Source: Acidimicrobiia bacterium (GTDB lineage Bacteria; Actinomycetota; Acidimicrobiia; Spongiisociales; JAENVV01). Taken from it: a stretch of DNA of 35,150 bases. Below are positions 3,287 to 13,014 of this stretch, piece after piece (the stretch's first letter is position 1; each line of letters starts with the position of its first letter). Made by a program: the position numbers and the translations under genes. The notes beneath the pieces are model-generated. The model saw nothing but the letters and a program-made list of their open reading frames with translations, was not told the origin of the DNA and did no database searches. Location: positions 1 through 35,150 of the forward strand of contig JAENVV010000266.1 in NCBI GenBank assembly GCA_016650365.1. The letters run 5' to 3'.

Positions 3287-4210
3287 CTAGCACAGCCGCT
3301 CGGCCAGCATATTGACGAAAGCCTGGCGATCCACGTAGGTTACGACCTCGACGTTGGCCGGGTGGCCGGTTACTTCGAGCCAGTCGACGATGTCGTGGCC
3401 GCGGGCATGACCGTCACCGATCTCGACGTCGACGAAGCGATGCGCCGTTTCTGCAATTGAAGGATCGATGGCGACTGCCATGGCGATCGGATCGGGAAAG
3501 TCGAACCCGGGCAGTTTGGTCTCGGTCAGAGCAAAGTCGTTGAGAACCGCCTGAATGTCGACACAGAACTCGGCGTATGGCGTCCCGATCGAGCGGAGCT
3601 CGGCCGCCTGAGCCGGGTCGAAGGTGGCAGAAGCCACCGAGATGTCCCAGCCGATCATTGTCATTGCCATCCCCGAGCGCAACACCAGTTTGGCTGCTTC
3701 GGGATCGCACCAGAAGTTAAACTCACCGAGGGGCGTCACGTTGCCCGTCCCGGCGCCAGTTCCCCCCATGATGTAGCAGTGTTTGACGGCTCCGGCCATC
3801 TCGGGGGCCCGTAGAAGCGCTGCCGCCACGTTGGTGAGCGGTCCGATGGTGACCAGGTCGATGGCGCCTGGATCGGCCAAGAACGTCTCGACGATCACAT
3901 CGACCGCCCGCCCCCGTGCGGGAACTCGACCAGACAGATCAAGCCCGATATCGCCCATACCGTCTGACCCATGGACGTTCTCCGCCGACTCAAGATCGCG
4001 CATCATTGGAGCGGCCAAGCCGGCGTACACGGGAAGCTCCGATTCGCAAAGCCCGACGGTGAACAACGCGTTCTGGACCGCCTGGTGGAGTGGCACATTG
4101 CCGGCCACCACCGTGATCGCTTCCACCTTGACAGAAGAATCGCGTAGCGCCATGACGAGCGCAACGGCATCGTCGGAGGCAGTGTCGGTGTCAATCAGCA
4201 TGCGTTGCAT
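3287..4210 (-). CDS. Inosine/uridine-preferring nucleoside hydrolase family protein
   Basis: A 307-residue member of the IUNH family, which splits the N-glycosidic bond of ribonucleosides for purine or pyrimidine salvage. The N-terminal calcium and ribose site is intact: DTDTASDD gives Asp7, Asp9, Asp13 and Asp14. Further family motifs are TIGPLTNVA (about 121-129), YIMGG (146-150) and GEFNFWCDPEAA (162-173). Near the C-terminus the calcium-ligand Asp lies in FPDPIAMAVAIDP (Asp240). In many characterised members a histidine that acts as general acid precedes this Asp; here the residue is proline, so substrate range or chemistry may differ. The ATG at 4210 or the ATG three codons later could be the start; neither has a clear ribosome site. 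It is the last gene of the minus-strand run. Confidence 0.92.
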   Translation of the reverse strand: MQRMLIDTDTASDDAVALVMALRDSSVKVEAITVVAGNVPLHQAVQNALFTVGLCESELPVYAGLAAPMMRDLESAENVHGSDGMGDIGLDLSGRVPARGRAVDVIVETFLADPGAIDLVTIGPLTNVAAALLRAPEMAGAVKHCYIMGGTGAGTGNVTPLGEFNFWCDPEAAKLVLRSGMAMTMIGWDISVASATFDPAQAAELRSIGTPYAEFCVDIQAVLNDFALTETKLPGFDFPDPIAMAVAIDPSIAETAHRFVDVEIGDGHARGHDIVDWLEVTGHPANVEVVTYVDRQAFVNMLAERLC

Positions 4211-7052: not shown

Positions 7053-7120
7053 GCCGAGAGAGCTTACAAGCCTGGCCAGAGATCCGATGTGCCCGCCGCC
7101 GGCGTTTCTGCGGGTCCCAG

Positions 7121-7165
7121 CGCCCGAATACGGGCGTACGAACCCCGGGTTCAACCCTGGGTTCG
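7121..7165 (-). terminator. Tandem hairpins downstream of hyuB
   Basis: Two adjacent inverted repeats lie between the hyuB stop (7202) and the next minus-strand start (7052). One has CGCCCG (7121-7126), a four-base loop and CGGGCG (7131-7136). The other has 13-base arms (7139-7151 and 7153-7165) that match at 12 of 13 positions around a single central base. There is no U run, so the pair fits a GC-rich, L-shaped actinobacterial terminator or an mRNA 3'-end stabiliser. A repeat-type element is the other option. Confidence 0.5.
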
Positions 7166-7201
7166 GGGGATTCGTCTCGGCTCGGGCCGCGCCGGGCCCG
7201 A

Positions 7202-8920
7202 TCAGCTCCGGTGGGAGGCTCGTAGTTGCGACGTAGCCGTCTCGTCGACGGCTCCGTCGACGATGACGACTCCGTAGGTCTCTTGAGCCGATTCGACAGT
7301 GATGTAATCGCCGGCCACGTCGTCTGCCACCGCCGACGGATCGCGGTCGTATGGATCGCCGTGGCCGCCTCCCCCTGGCAGGCCAAGATAGAACGAGTCG
7401 CCCGGGGGGATGGACTGCTGGCCCTTGCCGCGCAAGACCGTTCCGGACCCCAACTCCACCCGGGTGGGGAGGCCCGCTCCGCCGCCATTGCGTCCCAGAG
7501 CGGGATTGTTCACTTTTTCGTATTGGGCAAGCACGTCGAACGGCATTCCGTCGATCCCCATGACCTCGATATCCTGGCCAAGGCCACCGCGGAATTTCCC
7601 TGGCCCGCCCGAGTCGCGTCGCAGTTCTTTGCGAAGGAAGACTACCGGGGCAATCGCTTCGGTTGCCTCGACAGGGACGCCACGGACGCCGTTGGGGAAG
7701 CCCGTCGCGCTCAGTCCATCCTTGGTAGGCCGAGCGCCCATACCACCGTTGTTGAAATGCATCATCTCGAACTCGACAATCTTGCCCTCATACTCGCCGG
7801 CTACCGACGAGCCTCCCCGAAGCTGCAGATTGGCCAGAGCACTCGAACTCTCGGCAAGCGTCCCGCCCGGAAGTACCGGATGCAGAGCCCCGAGGACCGT
7901 ATCGGGGAGCAGATGTCCAATAATGTGGCGCAACGCAACCGGAGCAGGACGCTGCACATTGAGGATGCAATCCTCTGGAGCAATAACCTGGAGAGGCTCC
8001 ATCGACCCGGCGTTGTTCGGAATATCGGGCGCGACCGCACATTTGATTCCGTACGTGGTGTAGGCCTTCGTGTAATTGAGCACGACATTGATCCCGTAGG
8101 TGCTCGGCTTCGACGTACCGGCGTAGTCAACGAGAATGGAGTCATCTGAGACCGTCACCGCGGCTTGGAGAGTGATCGGATGCTCGTAGCCGTCCATCGT
8201 GACGCTGTTGTGGTAGGTGCCGTTGGGTAGTTCGGCGATCCTCTTGATGGTCGCGGCTCGTGAGCTGTCGATGATGAAATCGGCGAGGTCGCCCAGGTCG
8301 TCTATCCCGAACTCGACCATCATGTCGACCATTCGCTCGGCGCCGACCTCGTTCCCGCCGGCAAACGCGAAGATATCGCCAACGACCTGGTTGGCCTCGC
8401 GGACATTCATCCGAATGATCTCAATGAGCGTCTCATTGAGATCCCCGGCCCGATACAGGTGAAGAATCGGAATGTCCAGGCCTTCCTCGTAGATCTGACG
8501 GCTGTCCGGCGTGAATCCTCGACCGCCGATATCGACCACGTGGCACGTGTTGGCGACCAGTCCCACGGCCCGACCATCGAAAAAGAACGGGGTAACGATC
8601 GTCACATCATTGTGATGACCTGAGGCCAGCCAGGGGTCGTTGGTGATGAGTACGTCACCAGGAACCATCGTGTCGATGGGATGTTTGGAGAGAAAGTGTT
8701 TGACGCATTCGGCAACCGAGTTGATGTGACCTGGCGTACCGGTGATTGCCTGAGCGAGCATCCTTCCCTGACGGTCGAAGACGGCGGCGGCCAGATCTCC
8801 AGCCTCCCTAACCGAGGTCGAGAACGCCGTCCGGATGAGCGCCTGAGCTTCTTCCTCGACGACGGCAATGAGCCGGTTCCACATGACGTTGTTATGGATT
8901 CGGGTAAGGGCATCACTCAT
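7202..8920 (-). CDS. hyuB: Hydantoinase B / 5-oxoprolinase beta-type subunit
   Basis: A 572-residue HyuB-family subunit that works with HyuA to open cyclic amides such as hydantoins or 5-oxoproline with ATP, or in related enzymes to carboxylate ketones. The N-terminus (IHNNVMWNRLIAVVEEEAQA and FSTSVREAGDLAAAVFD) and motifs such as GTPGHINSVAECVKHF, GDVLITNDPWLASGHHNDV and DIGGRGF are typical. The C-terminal glycine-rich segments (GGPGKFRGGLGQ and GLPGGGGHGDP) are also characteristic. The start is fixed by GGAGG at 8927-8931, six bases before the ATG; it overlaps the end of hyuA by eight bases, which indicates translational coupling. The exact substrate cannot be read from sequence, and no racemase or carbamoylase gene lies beside it. 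Subunit assignment is very secure. Confidence 0.95.
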   Translation of the reverse strand: MSDALTRIHNNVMWNRLIAVVEEEAQALIRTAFSTSVREAGDLAAAVFDRQGRMLAQAITGTPGHINSVAECVKHFLSKHPIDTMVPGDVLITNDPWLASGHHNDVTIVTPFFFDGRAVGLVANTCHVVDIGGRGFTPDSRQIYEEGLDIPILHLYRAGDLNETLIEIIRMNVREANQVVGDIFAFAGGNEVGAERMVDMMVEFGIDDLGDLADFIIDSSRAATIKRIAELPNGTYHNSVTMDGYEHPITLQAAVTVSDDSILVDYAGTSKPSTYGINVVLNYTKAYTTYGIKCAVAPDIPNNAGSMEPLQVIAPEDCILNVQRPAPVALRHIIGHLLPDTVLGALHPVLPGGTLAESSSALANLQLRGGSSVAGEYEGKIVEFEMMHFNNGGMGARPTKDGLSATGFPNGVRGVPVEATEAIAPVVFLRKELRRDSGGPGKFRGGLGQDIEVMGIDGMPFDVLAQYEKVNNPALGRNGGGAGLPTRVELGSGTVLRGKGQQSIPPGDSFYLGLPGGGGHGDPYDRDPSAVADDVAGDYITVESAQETYGVVIVDGAVDETATSQLRASHRS

Positions 8921-11000
8921 TGACGGCCTCCATGACGATGTGACCGCCCGCTGAGATCGTGGCGTGGAACGAACCGGTGACCAGCGTGGCGGTGTTGGCC
9001 TCGACGATGATGGCTGGACCCGGCACAGAATCACCCGGGGCTAGGTCCGATCTGGCGTAGAGGTCCGCTTGCACGAGCTGCCCACTGTCGGCATCCATCA
9101 CGGCCCGGGACCCGGTCGGGCGGGGGACTCTCTTCGAGTCCAGTACCACTTCGAGCGTCGAGTGCGCCGGGGCCGGGCTTGCCACCGTCAGCACCCAGCT
9201 CAAGATTTCAACGTCGACACCCGGGATGGCCCGACCGTACAGTCGCTCGTACTCCTGCTCGTAGGCGGACAGGAACTGGGCGGGCGACGACTCGTCGATG
9301 ACCGCCGCGTCGATCGTGATCGGTAGTTCGACTCCTACTTCATGACCCTGCCCGATGTAGCGCATGTAGGCGAGTCGGGATTCATGAAGTGGCTGACCTG
9401 GCGCCCCGGCTTTTACGATCGGCGTCGCTTCGCGACGCATTGCATCGAGCAAGGAGTTGGCCCCGTCGATATCGAGGGCGCTGAGACGCTGGTGATACGT
9501 GCGAGTCACTTCGTAGGCCACCGGAGCGCGAAGAAATCCGATGGCAGATCCGATTCCCGCCCCGGGTGGGATGACCACACGACGAATCGACAGCTTCTCG
9601 GCCAGTCGGGCGGCGTGGAGCGGAGCGGCTCCCCCAAAAGCGATCATCGTCTTGGTTTCGACCCGTTGCCCGCTCTCGACGGTGTGCACCCGGGCGGCAT
9701 TCGACATGTTTTCGTCCACGATCTCTGCCACGCCAAGAGCTGCCGAACCGGTATCGAGCCCCAGCGGGTCGCCGATAACGCGCGAAATCGCCTCTGAGGC
9801 TGCTCTGGCGTCAAGCTGCATCCGCCCGTCGGCGAAATTGGCAGGATCAATCTTGCCAAGCACAACGTCGGCGTCGGTGACGGTCGGTTCCAAACCACCC
9901 AGGCCATAAGCCGCCGGTCCGGGATCTGAGCCGGCACTCTCGGGACCCACGGAGATGCGGCCCATCGCATCAAGATGGGCTATGGAGCCGCCGCCGGCTC
10001 CGATTTCGACCATTTCAATGACCGGAATACGCAACGGGAGGCCACTCCCCCGCATAAAACGATACATCCGGGCGACTTCAAAGCTCCGGGAGGTCTGTGG
10101 ATGGCCGTCCTGAATCAGACAAATCTTGGCGGTGGTACCGCCCATGTCGTAAGACAAAACATCGGAGAAGCCCAGGTCACGGGCTATGGACCCGGCAAAA
10201 ATGGCCCCGCCGGCCGGGCCGGACTCGACAAGGCGAACCGGGAAGCGGCGAGCAGTTTCAATGGTCGTGATACCCCCACCGGACAACATCAGATGGAGAG
10301 GGCAGGTAATCCCGATCCGCTGGAGCTCGGCTGCCAGGCCATCAAGATGCCGGCTCATGAGGGGTTGGACATAGGCGTTGGCGCAAGCCGTCGAAAGACG
10401 TTCGTATTCGCGCATCTCGGGTGAGACTTCGCTCGACAGGGTTATCTCCACATCGGGAAGGTGGCGAGCGAGGATTTCGCCTGCCTGCTGCTCGTGGTCG
10501 GCGTTCACGTAGCTGTGCATGAAGCCCACGGCTACAGCCTGGACTCCGGCGGTTTCGAGGAGAAGGGCGGCATCTACGACGTCCTGAGCGTGCAACGGTG
10601 CCAGTACCCGGCCCCTGGCGTCGATCCGTTCGGTGATTGGCCGGCGCAACCTGCGGGGTACGAGTGGATCCGGAAGGTCAATGTTGATGTCGTATTGCTC
10701 GTAACGATTCTCGTTACGCATTTCCACCGAATCGCGGAATCCCCGAGTCGTCAGCAGGCCGGTCGGTGAACCTTTCCTCTCGATGAGCAGGTTGGTTGCC
10801 AGAGTCGTTCCATAGATGACCTGGGTCACCTCGGCGGCCGCCAACCCGGCGGTTTCGAGGACCTCCTTGATGCCGGTGATCGCCCCCCGCTCTGGTGCGT
10901 CGTGGGTGGTCAGCGTTTTGGCGGCGATAGGTCCAGCTTCCCGTTCCAGCGCTACGTCTGTGAACGTGCCTCCGATATCAACCCCGATGCGGATTTCCAT
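8913..11000 (-). CDS. hyuA: Hydantoinase A / 5-oxoprolinase alpha-type ATPase subunit
   Basis: A 695-residue HyuA-family subunit with the actin-like ATPase fold, which phosphorylates the cyclic amide or ketone substrate before the HyuB step. The first phosphate loop is VDIGGTFTDVALE at the N-terminus. Other family stretches are YGTTLATNLLIERKG, LVESGPAGGAIFAG, SYDMGGTTAKICLIQDG, EIGAGGGSIAHLD, VGPESAGSDPGPAAYG and FGGAAPLHAARLAE. I chose the ATG at 11000, which places the glycine-rich loop near the N-terminus as in relatives; a GTG at 11042 would add 14 residues and cannot be excluded. It is followed immediately by hyuB with overlapping ends. The pair may serve hydantoin, 5-oxoproline, N-methylhydantoin or ketone use. 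Confidence 0.95.
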   Translation of the reverse strand: MEIRIGVDIGGTFTDVALEREAGPIAAKTLTTHDAPERGAITGIKEVLETAGLAAAEVTQVIYGTTLATNLLIERKGSPTGLLTTRGFRDSVEMRNENRYEQYDINIDLPDPLVPRRLRRPITERIDARGRVLAPLHAQDVVDAALLLETAGVQAVAVGFMHSYVNADHEQQAGEILARHLPDVEITLSSEVSPEMREYERLSTACANAYVQPLMSRHLDGLAAELQRIGITCPLHLMLSGGGITTIETARRFPVRLVESGPAGGAIFAGSIARDLGFSDVLSYDMGGTTAKICLIQDGHPQTSRSFEVARMYRFMRGSGLPLRIPVIEMVEIGAGGGSIAHLDAMGRISVGPESAGSDPGPAAYGLGGLEPTVTDADVVLGKIDPANFADGRMQLDARAASEAISRVIGDPLGLDTGSAALGVAEIVDENMSNAARVHTVESGQRVETKTMIAFGGAAPLHAARLAEKLSIRRVVIPPGAGIGSAIGFLRAPVAYEVTRTYHQRLSALDIDGANSLLDAMRREATPIVKAGAPGQPLHESRLAYMRYIGQGHEVGVELPITIDAAVIDESSPAQFLSAYEQEYERLYGRAIPGVDVEILSWVLTVASPAPAHSTLEVVLDSKRVPRPTGSRAVMDADSGQLVQADLYARSDLAPGDSVPGPAIIVEANTATLVTGSFHATISAGGHIVMEAVNE

Positions 11001-11115
11001 GCCGGGAACGCTAGCCGCCGTTCGCGAGGTCGAGGTCGTCACTCACGCTTGGTCCGAACCCGAATCCAACAATTCGATGGACCCGAACCGATAGTCCGAC
11101 CAACCCGCATGCGAC

Positions 11116-11500
11116 CTAGTGGGCGATCTCCCAAATGTGGTCTCCGGGTCCCTGAAACTGGCCGTCCGGATCCCTCAGGGGCGATCCGTCGGACCATTGA
11201 GCAATACGACACCGCGTTTGATCAGTCTGCGCACATCGCTACTACATCTTCGACGGCGATGGTTGCTGCACGGCATGAACCAACGTGTGGTCCGGCGACT
11301 GCGCCGGGCGATCAGGTCTCCGGCTTCCGACTCCTTCAGCAAAATTGATGACGGTGTTCCCGAAGGCGGATGCAGCCGAGTCATCGTCCTCATAGAAGAC
11401 TTCAAACCGAAGACGGCCTCGTAAGTTGATTCGTCGACGCCAGATCTTTTACAAATAGTGTGATAGCGCCGATGCCCGCCGGCCACTCGGGCATGGCCAT
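11116..11500 (-). pseudogene. VOC-family (glyoxalase/bleomycin resistance-like) pseudogene with many frameshifts
   Basis: Read on the minus strand in changing frames, this segment gives almost a full VOC-fold protein of about 125 residues. In order: MAMPEWPAGIGAITLFVKDLAST, then TYEAVFG, then EVFYEDDDSAA and AFGNTVIN, then LLKESEAGDLIA, then GAVAGPHVGS and TIAVEDVVAMCAD, then LIKRGVVLLNGPTDRP. A TGA stands where relatives usually have TGG, followed by GIRTASFRDP, and after a last shift GDHIWEIAH with a TAG stop. I count six indels plus one nonsense codon in 385 bases. The start (ATG 11500, or 11494 with GAAGG upstream) lies right after the DinB-like stop at 11504, so it was once part of that operon. 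Neighbouring genes are intact, which argues for true decay rather than poor sequence. Confidence 0.85.
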
Positions 11501-11503
11501 CCT

Positions 11504-12007
11504 TCAGTCTCTCGGTGGACGATATCCCGTGGAACCATCGATGAGTTCTCGGAGGATGTCCGCATGCCCGGCGTGGCGGGCGGTTTCCTCGATCATGTGG
11601 AGGATCACCCAGCGCATCGAGACCATGTCACCGAACCAGGCGGTCCCTTCACCATCGAGGCCTACCTCAGCCATGGCCAGATCCGAGGCGTCGCAGGCGC
11701 GTCGATAGAACCCGAGAATGTCTTCGGTCGTCTCGTCGTTGTTGACCCGCAGATCGGCGTCTTCGTCGTCGTCGTCGAACGGGAGCGGCTCGGTGGCCCT
11801 CCCAAACGTCGTGCAGAACCAGCCATATTCGACGGCGGCCAGATGCTTGACGATCCCCAGGAGGTTGGTTCCGCTGGGGGTCATGGGTCGCCGGAGCTCT
11901 TCGTCGGTCAGGTCTTCGAGTTTCCAGACCATGACCTCGCGTTGTTTATTGAGAATGGAAACCAGCATCGGTCCTTCGTCGCCGGTGACCGGATACGCGT
12001 CGTTCAT
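11504..12007 (-). CDS. DinB-like / DUF664 family protein
   Basis: A 167-residue four-helix-bundle protein of the DinB/YfiT-like superfamily, of the DUF664 type. Visible signs are the N-terminal helix with KQREVMVWKLEDLTDEELRR, then TPSGTNLLGIVKHLAAVEYGWF with His55, an acidic loop DDDDEDAD, and the C-terminal helix VILHMIEETARHAGHADILRE with His137 and His145 or His148. The histidines form the expected three-His metal site. Some family members are thiol-dependent transferases (mycothiol or bacillithiol); the role of this branch is unknown. The ATG overlaps the threonine aldolase stop by ATGA (12004-12007), so the two are translationally coupled. The decayed VOC gene begins four bases after its stop. 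VOC and DinB-like genes are often found together in actinobacteria. Confidence 0.88.
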   Translation of the reverse strand: MNDAYPVTGDEGPMLVSILNKQREVMVWKLEDLTDEELRRPMTPSGTNLLGIVKHLAAVEYGWFCTTFGRATEPLPFDDDDEDADLRVNNDETTEDILGFYRRACDASDLAMAEVGLDGEGTAWFGDMVSMRWVILHMIEETARHAGHADILRELIDGSTGYRPPRD

Positions 12008-13014
12008 AGTTCTGACACGACGAGCGTGACGGTCTCGGCGAGGTGTTCGACGTCGGCCTGCGTGATACCAAGATGGGTCACCAGCCGACTGGAGGAGCGG
12101 CCGGTGAGCGCAATGATGCCGTGATCCTTGAGCCTCGCAGCGAACGACACATAATCCAGGACGCCGAAGTCGACGAACACCATGTTTGTTGCTTGTCCCT
12201 TAACCGTCACTCCTGGTACATTTCCAAGCAACTTGGCTAGCAGTTCGGCGTTGGCGTGGTCATCGGCCAGGCGGTCGATGTTGTGATCGAGGGCGTAGAT
12301 GCCACCGGCGGCAATGATGCCTGCCTGGCGCATTCCTCCTCCGAGCATCTTGCGCCAGCGTCGGGCCTCCCGGATCAGGTCGATCGAGCCGACCAGAACA
12401 GAACCGACCGGTGCCCCAAGGCCCTTTGACAAGCAAACCGAAACGCTGTCAAAAGGCTCCGCGATCACCGACGGAGCGACGCCGAGGGCTACCGCGGCAT
12501 TCCAGATTCTCGCTCCATCGAGGTGGAGTGCCAGATCCCGCTCGTCGACGAACATTCGGGCTGCCTTCAGGTAATCGAGCGGCACGACCTTCCCGTTGTG
12601 GGTGTTTTCAAGGCAGAGGAGCCTCGTGTTGGCGAAGTGGTCATCGTGAGGCTTTATGACTGAGGCAACCCGGGTCAGATCCAAAGAGCCATCCGGTTCG
12701 AAGTCGATCGGCTGCGGTTGGATGGACCCAAGAACCGCCCCACCGCCAGCCTCGTACTTGTAGGTGTGGGCCAACTGTCCAACGATGTATTCGTCACCAC
12801 GCTGGCAGTGAGCCATCAGGGCAATCAGGTTCGACTGAGTCCCACTGGGCACGAACACTGCCGCTTCTTTGCCGAGTAATGAAGCCGTCTTCGCTTCAAG
12901 AGCGTTGATCGTCGGGTCGTCGCCGAACACATCGTCACCAACCTCGGCGGCTGCCATTGCCGCCCGCATCCCATCGGTCGGTTTCGTGACCGTATCGCTT
13001 CGAAAGTCAATCAT
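12004..13014 (-). CDS. ltaE: Low-specificity L-threonine aldolase
   Basis: A 336-residue PLP enzyme of fold type I that cleaves L-threonine or L-allo-threonine to glycine and acetaldehyde. The N-terminus is diagnostic: [35 protein letters not shown]. Other family sites are [13 protein letters not shown], His83 in [12 protein letters not shown] (stacks on PLP), [14 protein letters not shown], Asp166 in [12 protein letters not shown] and the Schiff-base Lys197 in [24 protein letters not shown] follows in the expected place. Length matches the family. It begins 50 bases after the SulP gene on the same strand and overlaps the next gene by four bases. Confidence 0.96.

Follow-up and report, generated by a model that had tools for sequence, protein, structure and literature searches.

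A small VOC-superfamily gene caught part-way through loss beside a mycothiol-S-transferase-like gene in an Acidimicrobiia bacterium

Mycothiol-S-transferase (MST) enzymes are described as joining mycothiol to electrophiles (PMC4360819), and in the account of the actinobacterial siwR loci, genes of the DinB superfamily occur with a glyoxalase-like gene nearby (PMC10693628). The locus analysed here lies in a window of 35,150 nucleotides from the genome of an Acidimicrobiia bacterium (G000), a draft of 3.49 Mb in 341 contigs with an estimated completeness of 97.8%. It resembles the siwR loci in its DinB-superfamily gene and, as far as the glyoxalase-like pfam18029 gene reported for some of those genomes is concerned, in a VOC/glyoxalase remnant; a WYL regulator is described as a further part of the siwR loci (PMC10693628). 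On the minus strand of the window, a gene of the threonine-aldolase type is followed by the MST/DinB-fold gene, the VOC remnant and a gene of the hydantoinase A type (Table 1), and the order and spacing of these genes suggest that they form an operon.

The wider VOC subfamily is found, by record titles, in Actinobacteria, Chloroflexi, Deinococcales, Paenibacillus and others. Named genomes were scanned with the intact VOC protein of a congener (G001) and the best 80 of 197 related loci were kept, the other 79 of which share 57-76% protein identity with the G001 protein. In 17 of these best 80 of 197 loci, an MST-family match lies directly after the VOC gene, in the same orientation and no more than about 100 bases away, a count to be read with the fact that over 500 bases of downstream sequence are present at 78 of the 80 loci and that the single MST query may miss distant members. 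These 17 loci correspond to 18 rows, L120 having given two, and include one weak match (L135, E 4.8e-4); one of the 17 neighbours was scored as MST by Pfam with an E-value of 6.3e-36. The order in those loci is VOC then MST, whereas in the genus of the window it is MST then VOC. Because an MST follows the VOC gene in 17 of the loci kept, the lost enzyme was probably the partner of the neighbouring MST, and its role was probably the detoxification of a reactive electrophile jointly with this thiol-transferase-like neighbour. That VOC and MST genes recur side by side offers a modest clue to what both families do.

The remnant in the window is, with high confidence, a genuine pseudogene that once encoded a small VOC-superfamily enzyme, belonged to the local gene string and was lost after the split from G001. 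Loss of function in a VOC gene had been claimed in the first-pass annotation, and homology, lesions, synteny and an intact congener all support this claim. We infer both the lack of function of the stretch and the order and timing of the loss events.

Taken singly, none of the three raw frames of the stretch matches a VOC family in Pfam at E-values up to 1, as expected for a pseudogene with six frame changes, and homology was therefore based on DNA synteny and on frameshift-tolerant alignment. The latter scored three VOC proteins at 328, 312 and 441, compared to shuffle maxima of 43 (100 shuffles), 42 (40) and 40 (40) and to opposite-strand scores of 36, 27 and 30. The protein scoring 328 comes from outside the genus, and with its shuffle maximum of 43 it supplies the match that the first-pass annotation had expected from a frameshift-aware VOC search. 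At the DNA level, window and G001 match at 86% over 1011 bases of the stretch and its flanks and at 83% in the VOC core alone. This core identity, together with gene order and residue order, makes up the likeness to the VOC superfamily (PF00903 / PF12681) and the G001 orthologue, from which the window copy differs in being disrupted by its six indels and one TGA. Assignment of the stretch to PF00903, as a pseudogene, is given by the profile match of its orthologue and by the frameshift-tolerant alignment, not by any single raw frame. The assembly of the window holds no second close VOC copy, the best match off the locus by E-value being 28% identical.

The ends of the former gene can be read from the sequence as an ATG at 11500-11498 and a TAG at 11118-11116 after the IAH end, so that the extent first assigned to it proves exact. 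When the stretch is aligned with the intact G001 gene, six indels that change the frame appear in the VOC core, namely five deletions of 1, 1, 2, 1 and 1 bases and one insertion of a single base, as judged against G001 and G004. At 11177-11175 the window has TGA where the G001 counterpart has TGG. This agrees with the earlier reading of six frame changes and one TGA in place of a Trp codon. The alignment around the lesions is not unique, and blastn introduces one extra compensating pair of gaps that is absent from the MAFFT placement. The TAG of the window falls where the G001 gene reads on for about 20 residues, with a one-base difference in the tail; this difference may be a change in G001 and was left out of the lesion count for the window.

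Table 1. Features of the VOC remnant and its neighbours in the window
Feature	Position	Strand	Basis or remark
Hydantoinase/oxoprolinase subunit A-type gene, intact, downstream neighbour	8913..11042	-	ORF list, profile matches
VOC/glyoxalase pseudogene (highly probable)	11116..11500	-	Alignment to intact G001 gene L003:2011-2460; frameshift-tolerant alignment with shuffles
Spurious 103-aa ORF, mix of remnant frames	11175..11486	-	ORF list, Pfam scan
DinB-fold gene, intact, Mycothiol-S-transferase PF04978, 167 aa, upstream	11504..12007	-	Pfam E 1.3e-50
Low-specificity L-threonine-aldolase-type PLP enzyme, intact	12004..13014	-	Overlaps MST gene by 4 bases

The genes on both sides, the DinB-fold MST-like gene and the hydantoinase-type gene, are intact, as had been claimed. 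The MST protein is 96% identical to that of G001 and scores 172.2 bits against a Pfam cut-off of 27 for PF04978, and it is a putative transferase. For the hydantoinase A-type gene, conservation with G001 makes an ATG at about 11001 the more likely start.

The gene order of the window is that of G001, with 91% identity over 3.6 kb, and this close relative carries an intact orthologue in the corresponding position, one mark of a bacterial pseudogene. The VOC frame of G001 is open from its ATG over 149 aa, its protein matches Pfam Glyoxalase with an E-value of 1.3e-17, and it departs from only one of the 60 columns whose conservation reaches 90% or more among 78 relatives (the columns were defined without the congeners L097 and L115; L160, with 17 departures, is cut short in this alignment). 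The expectation that a relative would carry an intact gene after the DinB-like gene was therefore borne out by G001, while the expected length of about 125 residues was not, because the C-terminus of the G001 protein passes the usual end of the family. This extension, of about 20 residues, is encoded at L003 2394-2460. The G001 protein also gives weak matches to the FosB / FosA thiol transferases of NCBIfam (best E 4.4e-7); with 30.3 bits against a cut-off of 171 for the FosB model, it is not a member of the FosA/FosB fosfomycin thiol transferases.

The other congeners differ in the state of the gene. The VOC core of G003 carries a different set of seven indels, made up of two 1-base insertions and deletions of 1, 6, 13, 3 and 1 bases. 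The frame is changed by five of these seven, and none shares a place with those of the window as far as the alignment can tell. As G001 is intact and G004 is open, the losses in the window lineage and in G003 are independent by parsimony. In G004 the frame stays open as far as the usual end, and it matches Pfam Glyoxalase with an E-value of 3.4e-17. When this G004 frame (L005 1071-1490) is read by eye in the alignment, no ATG, GTG or TTG stands at the expected start, and the first ordinary start codon lies inside the conserved ITLF stretch, which would give a product of 115 aa. A Gly replaces a Glu kept in 78 of the 80 aligned sequences, the other exception being the truncated L160, and three of the 60 conserved columns are departed from, a level which other relatives also reach. 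The G004 copy may be in early decay, or it may be a working copy with an unusual (rare) start codon. G002 has no VOC match at an E-value of 0.001 or better, and since this genome is only 68% complete it was not counted as a loss. G006, whose genome belongs to the same family, has a tandem pair of DinB-fold genes (L006 1441-2447); at 84% completeness it gives no match to the VOC protein at an E-value of 0.001 or better.

Constraint on the gene was compared by the ratio of differences at codon positions 1 and 2 to those at position 3. Between window and G001 these are 28:35 for VOC, 8:37 for MST and 14:60 for the aldolase (Fisher p 0.004 for VOC against MST and 0.0016 against the aldolase). When the window branch is polarised by G004, VOC has 15:11 and the pooled flanks, MST and aldolase, 12:29 (p 0.025), a contrast which rests on small counts and is driven by the aldolase (4:20, p 0.004), with MST alone at 8:9 (p 0.55). 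Relaxed constraint relative to the flanks is thus seen pairwise and, polarised, against the pooled flanks, not against MST alone. Neither the window-branch VOC compared to the G001-branch VOC (15:11 against 6:11, p 0.22) nor the G001-branch VOC compared to the G001 flanks (7:33, p 0.18) gives a significant difference. On the G003 branch the contrast is 34:15 against 24:69 (p 8e-7) and is also clear against each flank singly, and on the G004 branch it is 13:16 against 24:81 (p 0.033; p 0.21 against MST alone). Unpolarisable VOC sites were dropped, 16 of 59 differing ones for window and G001 and 23 for G003 and G004. The neutral share of the window branch has a median of 0.6 with a 90% interval of 0.18 to 1.49, a crude estimate too loose to date the loss, which the first-pass annotation had called recent.

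A rival explanation is that sequencing or assembly errors cluster locally in what is in truth an intact gene, and both the fragmented state of the draft, with its hundreds of contigs, and the fact that three of the six lesions alter the length of short single-base runs, as read from the alignment, speak for it. Against it, there are no gaps at all relative to G001 in the aldolase (1011 bases), in the MST gene (504 bases) and in the aligned 1.5 kb of the hydantoinase A gene, compared to seven gap columns in six events in the VOC core and one in the tail (gap columns at alignment position 4015 are an end beyond the G001 stretch). The blastn comparison, with alignments under 300 bases left out, places nine of 47 frame-changing gaps within about 310 bases (11113-11422) of 32,330 aligned window bases. 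The other 38 comprise 20 outside a greedy gene set, eight within about 60 bases of a set end and ten deeper inside genes, six of which form three close pairs; this gene set misplaces the hydantoinase B gene and was used for gap clustering only. The surplus of changes that this stretch shows at the first two codon positions and the breakage of the same gene in G003 by other lesions also speak against errors of this kind, and the explanation is considered very unlikely.

Still less probable is a stretch that continues to work in another way, as a short protein in a shifted frame or as a structured RNA. ORFs of 103, 101, 148 and 82 aa do overlap it on the two strands, but none of the four has a credible Pfam match and all were discarded as genes, Rfam gives no match at E-values up to 1 in the region 10900-11600, and the 103-aa frame has no counterpart among the G001 ORFs of at least 80 aa. 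The sole Pfam hit of the 103-aa ORF, at E 0.061, is below the cut-off and not credible. A false 103-aa protein on the same strand had been foreseen in the first-pass annotation and the ORF does exist, so that caution is advised with gene callers, which may report it at this locus.

The pseudogene is best understood as ordinary gene loss caught part-way. The ancestral gene string would have held the aldolase, the MST, the VOC gene and the hydantoinase subunits, and once the window lineage had parted from that of G001, selection on the VOC gene would have been lost. The DNA would have stayed in place and gathered small indels and one nonsense change, with the neighbouring genes still open. In G003 the slot would have decayed independently, and the G004 copy looks damaged, which would make the VOC gene dispensable in part of the genus. 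Three of the four VOC copies seen in the genus are broken or appear damaged, by different changes, and the slot seems to erode repeatedly. That the genus is repeatedly losing the VOC partner of the MST-like enzyme, with the transferase kept open in all four, is a tentative and rather doubtful extension; if true, it would suggest that the pair has come to use another substrate or cofactor across the genus. One gene slot is thereby displayed in close species at several stages of decay, as an intact copy, as a copy with doubtful start and key residue, and as two broken copies.

Searches for mycothiol biosynthesis proteins, which asked whether the VOC loss goes with a loss of mycothiol, gave MshC matches below the cut-off in all five genomes of the genus. 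As the MshC control matched in each of 14 genomes, in one of them over the cut-off, these sub-cut-off matches may be cysteinyl-tRNA synthetases. MshD is over the cut-off in two of the five (G000 and G001) and not in G002 (68% complete), G003 or G004, a distribution that does not track the state of the VOC gene. Elsewhere in the window, at 7098-7171, lies a dispersed hairpin-forming repeat of about 65 bases, REP-like by appearance, which has 35 matches in its own genome, itself included and many of them arms of one copy, and seven in G001; its folding energy is -48.3 kcal/mol (z -2.5).
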